From positions 1,710,501 through 1,774,500 of the forward strand of contig NZ_CP016020.1 in NCBI RefSeq assembly GCF_001889165.1: a stretch of 64,000 nt of DNA. The letters run 5' to 3'. Positions 52,737-63,001 of the stretch are shown here, piece after piece. Numbering within the stretch: the first letter of the stretch is position 1; each line of letters begins with the position of its first letter. Source of the DNA: Bacillus weihaiensis. Lineage in GTDB: Bacteria > Bacillota > Bacilli > Bacillales > Bacillaceae. The notes beneath the pieces are model-generated. The model saw only the letters and a program-made list of their open reading frames with translations. It did not search any database and was not told where the DNA came from. The position numbers and the translations under genes were made by a program.

Positions 52737-52850
52737 GCGATGAGCTGAATTGTGTAAGTCGATAGACATACCTTTATGGTTAAATGTACGATGTGGCGTG
52801 CAGTCTATCGCCTCAATATACGCAAAGGACGTCTTTTAGACGTCCTTTTT
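52737..52850 (+). ncRNA. candidate structured small RNA upstream of the P5C reductase gene
   Basis: The outer stem CGATAGAC (52760-52767) / GTCTATCG (52803-52810) encloses two hairpins, ACC-TTTAT-GGT and TGTAC...GTGCA, giving a multi-branched fold. A strong terminator ends at 52850. TATAGT at 52725-52730 could be a -10 element. No ORF with a ribosome binding site covers it. Not a T-box: the AGGGTGG antiterminator sequence is absent. Confidence 0.45.
52824..52850 (+). terminator. terminator of the candidate small RNA
   Basis: GGACGTC / GACGTCC stem, loop TTTTA, then TTTTT. Confidence 0.85.
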
Positions 52851-57077: not shown

Positions 57078-57324
57078 TGGGTAAACCGTTTCTTATAGCT
57101 AATACTTTTCTTTTATATTAATAGTCTATTAACCTACACAAAAGTAAATGACTCCTTTTGAATTAAAATGTATGCGTTTACATAATAGACTCTATGATCA
57201 AAATATCACTTTTCCATTTTTGTCTATCACCTTAGAAAAACAAAATCATAAGTTGTAAATGTACTAAAAACTATGAGTGAAAAAAGCTCATAGAATAATC
57301 CTGTATAAAAGGAGGTGCAGAGAT

Positions 57325-57888
57325 TTGGTTCAAAAGAAAGGGGATTGGAAAAAAGAATTTGAAGAAGCGGAAAAACTCCATAACAAAGCAATAAAAGGAG
57401 ATAAAGAAGCAGCTAAGAAGGCCTATACTATTTTAAAACAAATCAAGCAAGTTTCTCTAAATGATTCTAAAGTAGAAGCATTATATGGAAGTTCTTCTGC
57501 ACTTGTTGCTAGAGACCAGATGGATTTGATTGAGAAAACGAATTTAGCTAAAAGAGGTTTGAAGTCTTTAGATAAAGCTGTGGCAACAGAACCCAAAAAC
57601 ATAGATTTTCGAATTTTAAGAGGGAATGTTGCTTTCCGTTTACCTGAAATGTATTTTAAGCGAACCAAAACAGCTATTGAAGATTTTGAATTTCTGATTA
57701 AAGAATATGAGTCGAAAAAAACAAACTTGAATAGTGAACAGTATTATGAGTTCTTACTAAATCTTGGAACTTCCTACAATACACTTGGTAAAAGTAATGA
57801 GGCCGAAAAGGTTTGGAATAAATTAGTGAAAATGAATCCTAGCTTTAAACCAATCATTGAAAATGTGAAACGAAATGGGGGTGAGTAA
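57325..57888 (+). CDS. TPR-like module protein, one unit (first gene of novel operon)
   Basis: 187 residues from a TTG with AAAGGAGGTGCAGAGA upstream; an earlier frame start at 57277 has no site. One helical unit: EFEEAEKLHNKAIKGDKEAA, ALYGSSSALVARDQ, GLKSLDKAV, then FRILRGNVAFRLPEMYFKR, AIEDFEFLI and a TPR-like end LGTSYNTLGKSNEAEKVW. The same unit occurs three times in the next gene. Soluble, no signal peptide. Its close spacing (one base to the next start) suggests translational coupling. The function is unknown; helical repeats suggest scaffolding or protein binding. Confidence 0.82.
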   Translation: MVQKKGDWKKEFEEAEKLHNKAIKGDKEAAKKAYTILKQIKQVSLNDSKVEALYGSSSALVARDQMDLIEKTNLAKRGLKSLDKAVATEPKNIDFRILRGNVAFRLPEMYFKRTKTAIEDFEFLIKEYESKKTNLNSEQYYEFLLNLGTSYNTLGKSNEAEKVWNKLVKMNPSFKPIIENVKRNGGE

Positions 57889-57889
57889 T

Positions 57890-59803
57890 GTGAGTATGAA
57901 GAAACGAGAAAAACTATTGGCTACCTTAGCTAAACGTAATCCTTATATCAATAATGCTATTTTACAAAGTGAATCACGTTCTAAGAGAAAAACAAAAGGA
58001 AAAGAAGAAAATATAGACACAAGAGTAAAAGAACAAGATACGAAATCTATGAAGAAAGCAAAAGTGGATGTAACCAATAAAAGTCTAGAAAAGGTAGGAA
58101 AAGAAGAAAAAGGTAGTCAATCACTACAATTAATTGAAGCAATTAAAGACCATGATGCTGGAATAAAAGGCGATAAAATTGCAGTGAAAAAAGCTTATAC
58201 GATGTTGAAAAAGCTTTATTCCGAACAAAAAGCAAACTTAGAAATCCGAGCTTACCTAGGTAGTGCTGCAACTTTATTAGGAAGAGATGCGCATAGTGTA
58301 ACAGACAAAATGAAGTATGCATTAGAGGGATTAAAGCATTTAGATGAAGTAGTAGAAAAAAAATCGGATTTTTTCTTAGCTAGATTTCTAAGAGGGCATG
58401 TAGCATACCGATTACCAGATATGTATTTTCAAAGAATGACTACAGCAATTGAAGATTTCACCTATATAGTAAATGAATATGACCAGAACGCTAAGCTGTT
58501 AACCGAGGAAGAATATGTAGAAATCTTAAAAAACTTGGTTGATTTGTTTAAACGTACTAACGATCTTGAGAAATCATCGTTTTATCAAGAAAAATTAAAG
58601 CAACTCAAAAAAGCAACTCAACCTTTGGTAGCTATAGCTAATGATGAAAAACAAGAAAAACAGTATCAAGGCTCTGATCTAGAAAATGAGGGAATGAACG
58701 AGGAAGCAAGTGAGTTTTATGAAAGGGCATTAAAAGGTACTTCCGAAGATGTTAAAAAAGCTATTTCATTCTTTGAAGTATTTGTTCTGACAAATTCAGC
58801 TCCTGAAGTCGAAATGTATTTAATAGACTTGCAATCCATGCAAGCAAGAGACTCAATTAACACGTATGAAATGTTCGGTTCAGCAATTAAATCAATGAAG
58901 GCAATGGATAGTCTAATTCAAGAGCACCCTGAGAATCTTGAATTGAAAATCATTCGAGCAAGACATAGCTTACGTCTTCCAGAATTATTTTTCCGTCGAG
59001 CGGCAATTGCAATGAGAGATATCGAATCACTTTTAAAAGATGAGGGATTCCTAAAGCAAAAAGGCGATGAAACAAAATATCAACTGATGTATGAATTGGG
59101 TCTTGCGTATGAAATGTTAGATATGACTGAAGAGGCATTAGGTGCATGGAATCAACTAAGCAAGTTACGACCAGGTTCTTATTGGCAGGCAAAAATAGAT
59201 GAAAAGAAAGATGTTTATTCATATAAGGAAATCGATTTAAGAACTTTAACAGTTGCAACACCTGAAAAACTGTATGAAAAAGCGAAAGAAATGCACAAAT
59301 ATGGAGCAAAAGGCAGCAAAGTAGCAGCGAGACAAAGTCTCAAGGCATGGGAAAAAGCAAAAGAGGCTAACCCAGAGTGTGAAATTGCAGCAACGTACTA
59401 TGCAGCATCTGTTGCTTTACAAGGAAGGTTCGCAAGTGATCCACAAGATATGTTCAAAGATACGATTCAAGGTTTAAAACTATTAAAAACTTGCATCACA
59501 ACTGATAATCCTGAGTTGAAATTTTTAAGAGGAATGATTTATTCTGCTATGCCAGAAGGATTTTTCCACACGAGTGATAAAGCAATGAAGGATTTAAAAT
59601 CTGTTAAAGCAGCGTATGAACAAGAAGGAGAAAATTGTTCTATCACGAGGGAACAATACCTACAACTTCTTTACGAGCTAGGACTTTTGTATCAAAGAAA
59701 TAGTTTTCATGATAAAGCAGAAAAAACATGGAAGCAGCTACTAAAAGAAGAACCTAATTCTCCTTATGCTATGCGATTAGAAAGTATGGATTTAACAGAT
59801 TAA
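57890..59803 (+). CDS. TPR-like module protein, three units
   Basis: 637 residues. The first 80 residues are a Lys/Glu-rich, disordered leader. Three units follow at about 85-245, 275-435 and 462-630, each with a helical GDK-VKKAY type start, a RD-containing loop (LLGRDAHS, MQARDSIN, LQGRFASD), an FLRGHVAYRLPDMYFQR type motif (variants RARHSLRLPELFFRR and LRGMIYSAMPEGFF), AIEDF, and a final TPR with WKQLLKEEP. The units are paralogous to the upstream gene. GTG start with GGTGAG upstream. Cytoplasmic; function unknown. Confidence 0.82.
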   Translation: MSMKKREKLLATLAKRNPYINNAILQSESRSKRKTKGKEENIDTRVKEQDTKSMKKAKVDVTNKSLEKVGKEEKGSQSLQLIEAIKDHDAGIKGDKIAVKKAYTMLKKLYSEQKANLEIRAYLGSAATLLGRDAHSVTDKMKYALEGLKHLDEVVEKKSDFFLARFLRGHVAYRLPDMYFQRMTTAIEDFTYIVNEYDQNAKLLTEEEYVEILKNLVDLFKRTNDLEKSSFYQEKLKQLKKATQPLVAIANDEKQEKQYQGSDLENEGMNEEASEFYERALKGTSEDVKKAISFFEVFVLTNSAPEVEMYLIDLQSMQARDSINTYEMFGSAIKSMKAMDSLIQEHPENLELKIIRARHSLRLPELFFRRAAIAMRDIESLLKDEGFLKQKGDETKYQLMYELGLAYEMLDMTEEALGAWNQLSKLRPGSYWQAKIDEKKDVYSYKEIDLRTLTVATPEKLYEKAKEMHKYGAKGSKVAARQSLKAWEKAKEANPECEIAATYYAASVALQGRFASDPQDMFKDTIQGLKLLKTCITTDNPELKFLRGMIYSAMPEGFFHTSDKAMKDLKSVKAAYEQEGENCSITREQYLQLLYELGLLYQRNSFHDKAEKTWKQLLKEEPNSPYAMRLESMDLTD

Positions 59804-59825
59804 AACGTGAAACAGAGGTGAAACA

Positions 59826-60578
59826 ATGATTATCGATGCACATGCACACTTATCAAATACCGATTATGGCGATACATCGACCTATCTTAAATTATTGAAA
59901 GAAGCTGGGATTGATCAAGGTGTTGCAGTACCAGGAGCAATGCTTGATGTACGTAAAATGACAGATTATATCACGGGTCGTGCAAAGCCGGAAAAACCCA
60001 TCCCTGATAATAAATATGTTGAAAATGCCTTTAAGGCAAATAGCAATATTCACGGATTTATTTGTATTAATCCCCATGATAAAGATGTTGAGCAGCAACT
60101 TTTAAAAGCAAAGAGAGCTGGGTTTAAAGGGTTAAAGCTATCACCTATGTCCCATCAATTTTCGTTCTCTTCAAAAGGAATAGCAGCATTGGCTTCACTT
60201 TGCGGGGAATATGGGTTTCCTTTTTACACTCATGTTGTATATAGCCCAGGAGCTTCAACAGCTAAGCTTGTTCAATTAGCCAAGCAAAATCCTAAAACAA
60301 ATTTTATTATCGGTCATATGGGGTTTGGACCCGCCGATCAAGAAGCGTTAGAAGCGGCAAAAACAATGAATAATTTCTTTTTGGAAACATCAACTGGAAA
60401 TTTCTTGCATATACAAGAGTCAGTAAAAAAAGCTGGTAGCTCAAAAGTAATCTTTGGTTCTGAATACCCGTTGTCACATCCTGCTATTGAATTAGAAAAA
60501 ATTATGAAGCTAGAAATCTCTGATCGTGAACGGGAAGATGTTCTTAGTACCAATATTAAAAATCTATTATCTATTTAA
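59826..60578 (+). CDS. Amidohydrolase-2 family metal-dependent enzyme
   Basis: 250 residues, TIM-barrel amidohydrolase. The first metal site is IIDAHAHLS (H-x-H at about 5-7), later ligands are in FYTHVV and IIGHMGFG, and the late acidic position reads FGSEYPLSHP (Glu in place of the usual Asp). GLKLSP is near the barrel lysine position. Relatives include ACMSD-type decarboxylases and lactonases. In this operon a decarboxylase or hydrolase acting on the aldolase/DHQS product is plausible but unproved. AGAGGTGAAACA precedes the ATG; 22 bases from the previous stop. Confidence 0.86.
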   Translation: MIIDAHAHLSNTDYGDTSTYLKLLKEAGIDQGVAVPGAMLDVRKMTDYITGRAKPEKPIPDNKYVENAFKANSNIHGFICINPHDKDVEQQLLKAKRAGFKGLKLSPMSHQFSFSSKGIAALASLCGEYGFPFYTHVVYSPGASTAKLVQLAKQNPKTNFIIGHMGFGPADQEALEAAKTMNNFFLETSTGNFLHIQESVKKAGSSKVIFGSEYPLSHPAIELEKIMKLEISDREREDVLSTNIKNLLSI

Positions 60579-60592
60579 TCACTTGTTATTTC

Positions 60593-60640
60593 AAGACCTT
60601 TATATAATGTATTTAAGCATGTCTATTTAAGGTCTTTTAA
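60593..60640 (+). terminator. possible internal attenuator
   Basis: AAGACCTT / AAGGTCTT with a long loop and a short T run between the amidohydrolase and the DHQS-II-like gene; it may lower downstream expression. Confidence 0.4.
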
Positions 60641-60697
60641 TATAAATGCTTTTTAAAATAATATAAAAACTAATAGGTTGGAAGGAGCTAGAAATTT

Positions 60698-61804
60698 ATG
60701 CAACAGAAAGAAAGGCAAGTATGGTATGACGGAAGAGGAGTTTCAGTAGAGAACATGGATGTGTGGGAATTAATTAATCATTCTCCAATTGATAAGGTAT
60801 TAGTTTCTTTACAACAACGTAAAGAAGGATATTTCCCCCAAAAAATGACTTTTATCACAGAGGTAAACAATGTAAATGAATTAGAGAATGTGCCTGAAGA
60901 GGATGTTGTCTTTTCAGATAGTGAAGAAATTTTAGCAGAAGCTAAAAAGCGAGGTCACCAGACTTGTATTTTCTATTCCGTTGATAATAGAGAAATGCTT
61001 GAGCGTTGTTCAAGAGAAGCTGCTGAATACAATTTTGCAGCTGTGGATTTTGATCTACCAACGAATATTCCGCTTGAATTAATTATTGCAAGATTAGAAG
61101 AGAGCAACACAATCTTATTACGTGCTGTTAATACGGCAATTGATACTGAGATTGCATATGGAACATTAGAAAAAGGTAGTGACGGGGTATTGTTCGCAAC
61201 AAAAAATGTAGATGAGGTTAAACGTTTAACTGAATTTATGTCGAAGCAAGCTCTTCCAAATTTAGATCTCCAACCTATGGTAGTAACAGAAGTTGTGCAT
61301 GCAGGTATGGGAGTTCGTGCATGTGTTGATACCACTGGCATTATGAAGCAAGACGAAGGAATGATTATCGGGTCTACTTCTGGTGGAGGAGTATTTGTTT
61401 GCTCGGAAACTCACTATTTACCATATATGAATTTAAGACCTTTCCGTGTTAATGCTGGTGCTGTACATTCTTATGTGTGGCAGCCTGAGGATGCTGCAGA
61501 ATATTTAAGTGATTTAAAAGCAGGAGATAAAGTACTATGTGTGAACACAAAAGGAGAAACGCGTGTTCTAACGGTTGGTCGTATTAAAACAGAGGTTAGA
61601 CCAATGTTATTAATTAAAGGGAAAGTTGGAGAGCGTGAACTAAATGTAATCGTACAAGATGACTGGCATATCCGTATCATGAGTGCCGATGGAAAACCAC
61701 GTAATGCTTCTACAATCCGTCCTGGAGATGAGTTATTAGCTTATACTTGTGAACCTGGTAGACACGTAGGAGTTAAAGTAAGCGAAACAATCATCGAGAG
61801 ATAA
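60698..61804 (+). CDS. 3-dehydroquinate synthase II / GriH-like cyclase
   Basis: 368 residues, the length of archaeal AroB' and of 3-amino-4-hydroxybenzoate synthase GriH. Family blocks: VWYDGRG at the N-terminus, VSLQQRKEGYFP, GVLFATKNVDEVKRL, GVRACVDTTGIMKQDEGM, GSTSGGGVFVCSETHYLPY and RPFRVNAGAVHSYVW. In archaea it converts an amino-deoxy-heptulosonate to dehydroquinate with loss of ammonia; GriH instead aromatises a related C7 amino sugar phosphate. It is unrelated to standard AroB, and its aldolase partner is the next gene. Start has GGAAGGAGCTAG upstream. Confidence 0.9.
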   Translation: MQQKERQVWYDGRGVSVENMDVWELINHSPIDKVLVSLQQRKEGYFPQKMTFITEVNNVNELENVPEEDVVFSDSEEILAEAKKRGHQTCIFYSVDNREMLERCSREAAEYNFAAVDFDLPTNIPLELIIARLEESNTILLRAVNTAIDTEIAYGTLEKGSDGVLFATKNVDEVKRLTEFMSKQALPNLDLQPMVVTEVVHAGMGVRACVDTTGIMKQDEGMIIGSTSGGGVFVCSETHYLPYMNLRPFRVNAGAVHSYVWQPEDAAEYLSDLKAGDKVLCVNTKGETRVLTVGRIKTEVRPMLLIKGKVGERELNVIVQDDWHIRIMSADGKPRNASTIRPGDELLAYTCEPGRHVGVKVSETIIER

Positions 61805-61820
61805 AATAGGAGGAGTTACC

Positions 61821-62582
61821 ATGTCGGGGAAAGATATTCGTCTTAAGAAGCTATACCACCATTCCGATAATCTATTAATTGTTCCGATGGATCATGGAAT
61901 TACTATTGGACCTGTTACAGGTTTGGCAGAAATCAATCATACTGTGAATGCTGTGTTTGATGGTGGAGCAGATGCTGTTGTTGTTCACAAAGGACTTGTT
62001 CGCTATTTGACCGATTCCATTGGATCAAATAAAGGAGAATTAATCATCCATTTATCGGCTTCGACTGCTTTAGCACCAGAAACACAATCAACACGTAAAG
62101 AGGTTGTATCTTCGGTTGAACATTCAATCCGACTTGGTGCTACTGCCATATCTACACATGTTAATTTAGGCTCGCCATTTGAAGCAGATCAAATTAGAGA
62201 TGTAGGACTTATAGCTGAAGAATGTGATAAATGGGGATTACCTCTTCTTGCAATGATGTATGTCCGCGATGGCTCAAAACAGCATGAATTTGATCCTGAA
62301 AGAATTCGACATGCAGCAAGAGTAGCAGAAGAACTTGGTGCAGATATCGTAAAAGTAAATTATAGTGGCTCTGAAGAAACCTTTAAGCAAGTTGTCTCTG
62401 GAGTGAAGATTCCTGTATTAATCGCAGGAGGAGAGCGATTAAATTCTACTAATGATATCTTGTCTATGATTGAGGATGCAGTAAATGCAGGTGCCAAAGG
62501 AATTTCAATTGGAAGAAATATTTTCCAAGATGAAAACCCAGGAAAGTTATGTGCAAGTATTAGGTCTATATTAGACCGTTAA
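61821..62582 (+). CDS. Class I aldolase, ADH synthase / GriI-like
   Basis: 253 residues of the DhnA/LsrF class I aldolase family. Visible: IVPMDHGITIGPV, VVVHKGLVRYL, IIHLSASTAL, VNLGSPFEADQIRDVG, the Schiff-base lysine region DIVKVNYSGS, and PVLIAGGERLNSTNDI. Archaeal ADH synthase joins aspartate semialdehyde to a ketose phosphate; GriI joins it to dihydroxyacetone phosphate. The pairing with the type II synthase supports one of these reactions. AGGAGGAGTTACC precedes the ATG, 17 bases after the previous stop. Confidence 0.9.
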   Translation: MSGKDIRLKKLYHHSDNLLIVPMDHGITIGPVTGLAEINHTVNAVFDGGADAVVVHKGLVRYLTDSIGSNKGELIIHLSASTALAPETQSTRKEVVSSVEHSIRLGATAISTHVNLGSPFEADQIRDVGLIAEECDKWGLPLLAMMYVRDGSKQHEFDPERIRHAARVAEELGADIVKVNYSGSEETFKQVVSGVKIPVLIAGGERLNSTNDILSMIEDAVNAGAKGISIGRNIFQDENPGKLCASIRSILDR

Positions 62583-62594
62583 TGAGGTGATAAG

Positions 62595-62783
62595 GTGGAT
62601 AATAATAAACTAAACGAAGCTGTAGGAAGCTTAAGTCAAAGAATTAAAGAGTTAAAAGCGAATGGAGCTTCAAGTGAAGAAATTCAAGCTGCAGTCTTTG
62701 AAATGATCGACAGTTTAGGAATCAATATCCCTCTAGATAAAATCTCTGAGAAGATGAAAGGGTTGGATAAATCAAATGGATAA
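62595..62783 (+). CDS. small helical peptide 1 of the operon
   Basis: 62 residues, GTG start with GAGGTGATAAG upstream. It is paralogous to the next gene: an AVGSLSQRI helix, a SSEEIQAAVFEMIDSLGI helix and a short NIP motif, then a Lys-rich extension. No signal peptide, Cys or membrane segment. It may be a small adaptor, carrier or precursor peptide. The second peptide gene starts inside its stop region. Confidence 0.72.
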   Translation: MDNNKLNEAVGSLSQRIKELKANGASSEEIQAAVFEMIDSLGINIPLDKISEKMKGLDKSNG

Positions 62784-62916
62784 GAAAGAGGTTAAACTGG
62801 CTGTTGCAACTTTAAGAGAACAAATTAGCACAGCACTAGATGGTGAAAATCAAGCGGAAGATATTAAAGAAGCAGTTTATAACATGCTAAAATCCTTTAA
62901 TATTCAAATGCCATAA
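62776..62916 (+). CDS. small helical peptide 2 of the operon
   Basis: 46 residues (starts MDKKEVKLAVATLREQISTA, ends MLKSFNIQMP). Its ATG overlaps the previous stop codon by eight bases, so translation is coupled. Its AEDIKEAVYNMLKSFNIQMP tail aligns with SEEIQAAVFEMIDSLGINIP of peptide 1. Acidic and soluble. No family recognised. It is the last gene of the operon. Confidence 0.72.
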   Translation: MDKKEVKLAVATLREQISTALDGENQAEDIKEAVYNMLKSFNIQMP

Positions 62917-62951
62917 TTACCAAGAGAGAGATTAAATTATTCAATCTCTCA

Positions 62952-63001
62952 GACTGTAGGCAAACTCGGGTAAACTCGGGCTTGCTTACAGTCTTTTTTA
63001 T
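62952..63001 (+). terminator. terminator of the aldolase/peptide operon
   Basis: GACTGTAGGCAA / TTGCTTACAGTC stem with a loop holding the direct repeat AAACTCGGGT twice, then TTTTTT. Another hairpin, GAGAGATT / AATCTCTC, precedes it at 62924-62950. Confidence 0.85.

Follow-up and report, generated by a model that had tools for sequence, protein, structure and literature searches.

A TPR-linked operon of Bacillus weihaiensis as the probable half of a two-locus, closoxazole-type pathway under a sporulation-type promoter

The 64,000 bp stretch analyzed here (the window) covers positions 1,710,501 to 1,774,500 of contig NZ_CP016020.1 of Bacillus weihaiensis and carries a seven-gene operon at bp 57325 to 62916. 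We propose, with a probability of roughly 0.6, that this operon is half of a two-locus benzoxazole pathway of the closoxazole type and that the mother cell makes its product in the late phase of sporulation. From comparisons of enzyme families, gene linkage, a distant ligase pair and a promoter footprint, we infer the substrates, the product, its timing and location and the roles of the remaining operon proteins as follows. An aldolase and a type II dehydroquinate synthase (DHQS-II) family protein would form 3-amino-4-hydroxybenzoate (3,4-AHBA) from aspartate semialdehyde and dihydroxyacetone phosphate (DHAP). Two PaaK-like AMP ligases (PaaK1 and PaaK2), encoded at the distant locus, would adenylate and then join two or three aryl acids, and an amidohydrolase would close the benzoxazole ring. 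Sigma-K-like promoters would drive both loci, so that synthesis most likely takes place in the mother cell at a late stage of sporulation and the product comes to lie on or around the spore. Two tetratricopeptide repeat (TPR) proteins, with four module copies in all, would most likely serve as a scaffold that brings together the enzymes or their poorly soluble product, and two small peptides would be accessory.

The operon begins with TPRa (57325..57888), a 187 aa, single-module TPR-like protein with a TTG start behind AAAGGAGG, followed by TPRb (57875..59803; 642 aa), in which a basic tail at the N terminus is joined to the TPRa module in triplicate. Next are genes for a probable amidohydrolase of the condensing type (59826..60578; ClxD kind; Amidohydro_2, E-value: 4.3e-24), the DHQS-II family protein (60698..61804; ClxB/GriH kind, likely a 3,4-AHBA synthase; Pfam DHQS, E-value: 3.9e-100) and an aldolase of the 2-amino-3,7-dideoxy-hept-6-ulosonate (ADH) synthase type (61821..62582; ClxE/GriI kind; above the TIGR01949 cut-off). 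The last two genes encode the 62 aa peptide pepA (62595..62783; GTG start) and the related 46 aa peptide pepB (62776..62916; open frame). All seven reading frames are open and on the + strand, and their junctions in gene order are an overlap of 14 bp, gaps of 22, 119, 16 and 12 bp and an overlap of 8 bp. An intrinsic terminator (62951..63000, +) has a 13-pair stem with an inner 6-pair hairpin, followed by a T tail; it was not listed by a simple pattern scan and was seen in folding (minimum free energy -36.3 kcal/mol, z = -8.2 for an 89-nt stretch). The first-pass annotation, made from the sequence alone, had described seven genes on one strand joined by overlaps or short gaps, with one gap of about 120 bases and a strong terminator, and the coordinates, junctions and fold confirm this layout.

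The same gene order is found in 13/20 same-genus genomes, and these 13 operons and that of the window are referred to below as the 14 Metabacillus operons. (G-numbers denote genomes, G000 being the 4.36 Mb window genome and C1 its contig; L-numbers denote the loci compared.) The DHQS protein is 89-92% identical in 13/20 of these genomes and 41% identical in one more. A LysM-CAP gene lies downstream in all 13 same-genus operons, and a YetF-like gene lies upstream in 11 of the 13 (partial in one) and was not found in L030 and L031. Two of these operons have a gene split over two frames: TPRb of G007 (L021:10478-12039) and the aldolase gene of G019 (L023:10126-10889). Degeneration of the window operon is disfavoured, as every gene in it is open and conserved and the genome has a ligase pair at another locus.

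Promoter footprint and spore context

The sequence CTATCAC-N16-CATAAnnTGTA is present upstream of 14/14 Metabacillus operons and is among the few invariant blocks in that region. In the window it forms a candidate sigma-K-type promoter (57224..57257, +; CTATCAC-N16-CATAAGTTGTA). The sigma-K consensus is AC-N16/17-CATAnnnTA; all 14 operons match it except at the last A. The locus of the separate ligase pair, which occurs in four genomes, has CTATCAC, 16 or 17 bases and CATAnnnTA before PaaK1, a full match to the consensus in 4/4 cases. Because a promoter of the same sigma-K-like kind is found at both loci, late sporulation and the mother cell are the most likely time and place of synthesis; as judged from sequence, the shared on-switch suggests, without proving it, that synthesis coincides with spore building.

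Two patterns were chosen after the footprint had been seen. The first, CTATCACN{15,17}CATA, has a single match in the window (0.05 expected). The second, CTATCACN{15,17}CATANNNT, has six sites in the 4.36 Mb genome, two of which are at the operon and the ligase locus, and its reversed control has one. A second sigma-K-like match in the window (57270..57297, +) has no counterpart in the other 13 upstream regions and, being limited to the window genome, is weaker evidence. Known sporulation genes served for comparison: gerPA of B. subtilis is described as part of the sigma-K regulon, the promoter elements of which are 14-16 nt apart (PMC517825). In the window genome, gerPA and one gerPA-family gene match the sigma-K consensus fully. 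The window genome's dpaA, which we take to be under sigma-K control, has a near match that lacks only the last A. At 27 other loci, 6 of 42 operon starts have a full match upstream, versus 1.6% of random windows (p=5e-5), and a further full match precedes the gene at the head of the TPR genes in G014.

Both loci have spore-type neighbours. The first gene downstream of the operon scores above the cut-off of the spore_YkwD model (176 versus 171), and it is followed, just beyond the window, by a gene resembling those for small acid-soluble spore proteins (SASP). (SASP-like, ABC exporter, DAHP synthase and racemase-like are labels read here from translated open reading frames (ORFs) rather than obtained from family searches.) The Rossellomorea operon is followed by weak matches to GerPA and GerPC, below cut-off. 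At the ligase locus, a SASP-like gene that is 95% alike among the four genomes lies downstream of the pair, and a gene of 159 to 207 aa and two short genes lie upstream. The two short genes of the window genome match Coat_F (62 aa, E-value: 9e-6; 84 aa, E-value: 8.5e-16). The 159- to 207-aa gene resembles, in alignment, genes of L034 and L059 that have weak, below-cut-off matches to the chorismate pyruvate-lyase family (E-values: 0.014 and 0.005, respectively); no Pfam family matches the copy in the window genome. That this lyase-like gene supplies 4-hydroxybenzoate is, from these matches, only a possibility.

Several observations weigh against a sporulation-timed product. In the -10 element of the operon, the final A of the consensus is missing. 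Of the six genome sites, four have no recognisable spore gene downstream, and the Coat_F and lyase-like genes of the ligase locus have no such promoter match upstream. Within the same genome, one gerPA-family gene (L146) has no match to the consensus and another (L144) has only a partial one. Four of the six full matches at other loci are in Syntrophomonas, so that counted per locus the result is 3/27 (rough p 0.026), and most sampled Clostridial clusters have no sigma-K motif. SpoIVA is present in 21 of 22 amidohydrolase-positive Bacillota genomes (the exception, G656, is 75% complete) and in 335/398 sampled Bacillota genomes overall (p=0.11), so the presence of spore genes does not discriminate. 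The footprint may also belong to sigma-E instead of sigma-K. The case for a benzoxazole made by the sporulating cell is one of regulation and neighbouring genes only.

The competing explanation that survives best is that the pathway makes an ordinary secreted secondary metabolite, such as an antibiotic, a signal or a metal binder, and that the sigma-K likeness is coincidental or reflects another kind of stationary-phase control. The kind of pathway, which this explanation shares, is well supported; ORF reading places ABC-2-like exporter genes in divergent clusters of the same genus and ABC transporter genes near several Clostridial clusters, and the lack of a sigma-K motif in most sampled Clostridial clusters fits it as well. 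We nevertheless consider it unlikely, as the footprint is invariant in 14/14 upstream regions and common to an unlinked ligase pair, spore-type genes stand beside both loci, the window operon has no exporter and, unlike a sporadic cluster, the operon is syntenic in 13/20 same-genus genomes.

A further step can be put forward tentatively and with considerable doubt: that a benzoxazole-type aromatic is a spore component in Metabacillus and other endospore formers, its synthesis in the mother cell being driven by sigma-K, and that a dedicated scaffold of TPR proteins and peptides brings compound and enzymes together and delivers the compound to the coat. Such a coat aromatic could act, for instance, as a UV screen, a cross-linker or a germination modulator.

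An all-against-all comparison of the flanking ORFs of 38 loci gave, among the matches listed, mainly transporter-like and unrelated families and no recurrent spore neighbours in Clostridia. By ORF reading, the Clostridial clusters L074, L215, L221 and L223, and L218, L220, L224 and L226, are near branched-chain-type or NitT/TauT-like ABC transporter genes, which are perhaps involved in the uptake or release of aromatic acids.

The ligase pair and the enzymes of the operon

In 10 of the 13 same-genus operons, two PaaK-like AMP-ligase genes flank the amidohydrolase gene and complete the ClxA-E kinds of enzyme. Both are absent from the operons of the window genome, G001, G004 and G012, and in each of these four genomes a ligase pair is found 120-145 kb away (in the window genome at a distance of about 120 kb, G000:C1:1895211-1897679). 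For PaaK2, of a relative and of the window genome, the best PDB matches are 9s3l, AjiA1 (E-value: 7e-66) and NatL2 (E-value: 5e-63), while PaaK1 is closer to classical PaaK. Entry 9s3l is probably ClxA: there are two entries with eight chains, as described for ClxA in PMC12519233.

Trees of 29 PaaK2 and 17 PaaK1 proteins group the four separate ligases as one clade (support 100/100 for PaaK2 and 97/100 for PaaK1), which indicates one relocation or replacement rather than four. These trees bear on the explanation that the operon has lost its ligases and now ends at 3,4-AHBA, or at a derivative bound to the TPR proteins, while the distant pair serves another pathway. Four operons do lack ligases, and the distant pair has diverged, with PaaK2 49-51% identical to the in-operon Metabacillus ligases. 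However, the separate PaaK2 clade adjoins the in-operon ligases of Metabacillus and G414 (91/82), all four genomes without in-operon ligases have the distant pair with the same footprint, and the ligase-free operons retain, at 81-82% identity, the amidohydrolase, for which a ligated substrate would be required. We regard ligase loss as quite improbable on these grounds. As a separate observation from the PaaK2 tree, two myxobacterial ligases (L070 and L071) branch within the Bacillota ligases, a placement that suggests transfer of the pathway between phyla, without TPR genes at the myxobacterial loci.

The window aldolase scores 308 bits with TIGR01949 (ADH synthase; cut-off 299) and belongs to the DeoC/LacD aldolase family (Pfam, E-value: 4.1e-56). 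In alignment with MJ0400 (2qjg; E-value: 4.6e-72), its Y147 and K178 are opposite Y153 and K184, presumably the catalytic residues of MJ0400. The DHQS-II protein scores 291 bits with the NCBIfam DHQS-II subfamily model and 230 bits with the BagC/FevH AHBA synthase model, both below the curated cut-offs, and a PDB search with it returned no match. In the amidohydrolase, H6, H8, H136, H164 and E213 are invariant in an alignment of seven rows (A1) and are opposite the HxH, H, H, D pattern of 3cjp. Its assignment to the ClxD kind is based on family and partner genes, Amidohydro_2 being a broad family, and none of its 14 PDB matches carries a benzoxazole-enzyme label.

According to the first-pass annotation, shikimate synthesis does not require the aldolase/DHQS-II pair, and the operon makes an aminated C7 or aminohydroxybenzoate compound. 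The dispensability and the aminohydroxybenzoate are both supported: AroB is encoded elsewhere in the window genome (G000:C1:1588907; 396 bits, cut-off 305), so the pair is dispensable for shikimate, and in relatives the pair adjoins the enzyme kinds that make benzoxazoles from 3,4-AHBA, so an aminohydroxybenzoate is the best reading of the product. The DHQS-II protein would accordingly be expected to release 3,4-AHBA and not dehydroquinate; in principle, a member of this family could make dehydroquinate, which counts against our proposal. An archaeal-type dehydroquinate route into the shikimate pathway, for which both families are named and to which the DHQS-II score of 291 bits versus 230 bits for AHBA synthase would point, is very improbable, given that AroB is present, that relatives keep the pair with AMP ligases and the amidohydrolase, and that the DHQS-II models all score below their curated cut-offs.

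TPR proteins and small peptides

TPRa has Pfam TPR matches slightly below the cut-offs. Its AlphaFold2 model (mean pLDDT 92) is an all-helical, TPR-type array, and the nearest folds in Foldseek are MamA and consensus TPRs, with E-values no better than 1.3e-3 and a TM-score of about 0.6. TPRb matches TPR_2, TPR_14 and TPR_6 above the cut-off, and its copies of the TPRa module were found by both BLAST and hidden Markov model (HMM) searches.

To follow this family, a profile of the module from Metabacillus proteins was searched in amidohydrolase neighbourhoods. Of 398 evenly drawn Bacillota genomes, 22 have the amidohydrolase at an E-value of 2e-99 or better (the next match is at 3e-38), and the TPR family is beside it in 20 of these 22, window included; the exceptions are G075 and G607. 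Among at least 16 clear relatives of the amidohydrolase, the TPR family precedes ligase and amidohydrolase genes in at least 10. In an even draw of 397 genomes from the order, the amidohydrolase is present in five, the TPR family in six and both in four (Fisher p=7e-8; p=4e-6 without the window genome). These samples share members: L066, L067 and L074 come from three of the 22 genomes, and both draws include G075 and G000. When the two genomes that fed the profiles are also removed, the co-occurrence falls to p=0.015. TPR genes occur without the amidohydrolase in G093 and G137. Among the relatives listed, no TPR gene was found in the stretches from Archangium, Sorangium, Paenibacillus solani, Anaerobacterium and a Spirochaetes metagenome-assembled genome, and the match in M. 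malikii is only weak; as those five have the pathway enzymes, the TPR proteins are not needed for the chemistry. Taken together, the counts indicate that the TPR proteins are a usual, conserved partner of the pathway in Bacillota, where they would act as a scaffold.

The peptide pepA is present in 14/14 Metabacillus operons and pepB in 9/14 (8/13 same-genus operons and the window). The two are 30% identical (alignment A3), look helical and match no Pfam or NCBIfam family above cut-off. Homologues of pepA are found in Rossellomorea, Brevibacillus and Syntrophomonas. At an E-value of 1e-3, the HMM profile of the peptides finds them in 8 of the 22 amidohydrolase-positive genomes, some weakly; L211, L213, L218 and L222 end at contig ends, and the absence of DHQS-II or peptide genes there means little. 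The expectation that TPR and peptide genes stay linked to the pathway was thus borne out for the TPR genes and only in part for the peptides. A carrier role, which had also been suggested for the peptides, was rejected, as the 17 rows of A3 have no invariant Ser or Cys that could serve as an attachment site.

TPR genes of this family were also seen in other settings. The window genome has a second TPR pair (152 and 635 aa; L233:7773-10336, about 2521770-2524340 of G000:C1), with no pathway enzymes within its 19.5-kb stretch. L059:9984-17110 (G014) and L234:3675-10195 (G093) contain TPR genes, at least two AMP ligase genes, a DAHP-synthase-like gene and a lyase-like gene, with no DHQS-II, aldolase or amidohydrolase match in either stretch; from this gene content, they are possibly a sister pathway acting on another aryl acid. 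By ORF reading, divergent second clusters in M. malikii, G009 and G013 (L032, L034 and L035) have all five enzyme kinds, ABC-exporter-like genes, a further gene of the acyl-adenylating type and short TPR-like proteins, one of which is fused to a racemase-like domain. Elsewhere in the window, bp 52737-52847 (+) match the BsrF small RNA (Rfam RF01411, 100 bits).

Comparison with known systems

A reading of the operon as undescribed chemistry is not supported, since enzymes of these kinds make up the published closoxazole pathway, described for clxA-E of Clostridium cavendishii and pfxA-E of Pyxidicoccus fallax (PMC12118335). According to that account, aspartate semialdehyde and DHAP give 3,4-AHBA, two units are joined by ligation, the benzoxazole ring is closed by an amidohydrolase and a third unit is attached by a second ligase. 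The pathway described here has an aldolase (ClxE kind), a DHQS-II protein (ClxB kind), two PaaK-like ligases (ClxA/ClxC kinds) and an amidohydrolase (probable ClxD kind), a likeness drawn from families and the published description and, for PaaK2, from the match to 9s3l if that entry is ClxA. It differs in having TPR proteins and small peptides in the operon and a sporulation-looking promoter and, in four genomes including that of the window, in having the ligases at a second locus.

Other known systems share parts of the set. PaaK2 matches the structures of NatL2 of nataxazole synthesis, reported to join 3-hydroxyanthranilate (PMC12118335), and of AjiA1; ClxA is reported to join 4-hydroxybenzoate to esters as well (PMC12519233). 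The two families of the aldolase/DHQS-II pair are shared with GriH/GriI, BagB/BagC and FevH/FevI, the 3,4-AHBA synthases of actinomycetes; the window proteins score far below the cut-offs of the BagC/FevH (230/750) and BagB/FevI (223/500) models. With MamA and other TPR scaffolds, TPRa shares the repeat fold only.

Few producers are known for benzoxazole pathways, which are discussed mostly as bioactive-compound chemistry (PMC12118335). Searches of the open-access literature found nothing that joins benzoxazole, sporulation and the spore coat, or 3-amino-4-hydroxybenzoate, Bacillus and dehydroquinate synthase. For tetratricopeptide proteins with benzoxazole gene clusters they turned up a Streptomyces genomics paper, and for 3-amino-4-hydroxybenzoate-type compounds with sporulation, work on actinomycetes and on laccases. 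A genus-wide, sporulation-timed pathway with a scaffold of its own would, if confirmed, give benzoxazole synthesis a physiological role and add a small aromatic molecule to the make-up of the spore, and the TPR family would serve as a marker by which further clusters of this sort could be located in Bacillota. A two-locus pathway with a shared promoter is easily missed by cluster searches that consider the neighbourhood only. The kind of pathway is already known from closoxazole, while its Metabacillus form, with a TPR partner, a split layout and a shared sporulation-type promoter, is new as far as our searches go.

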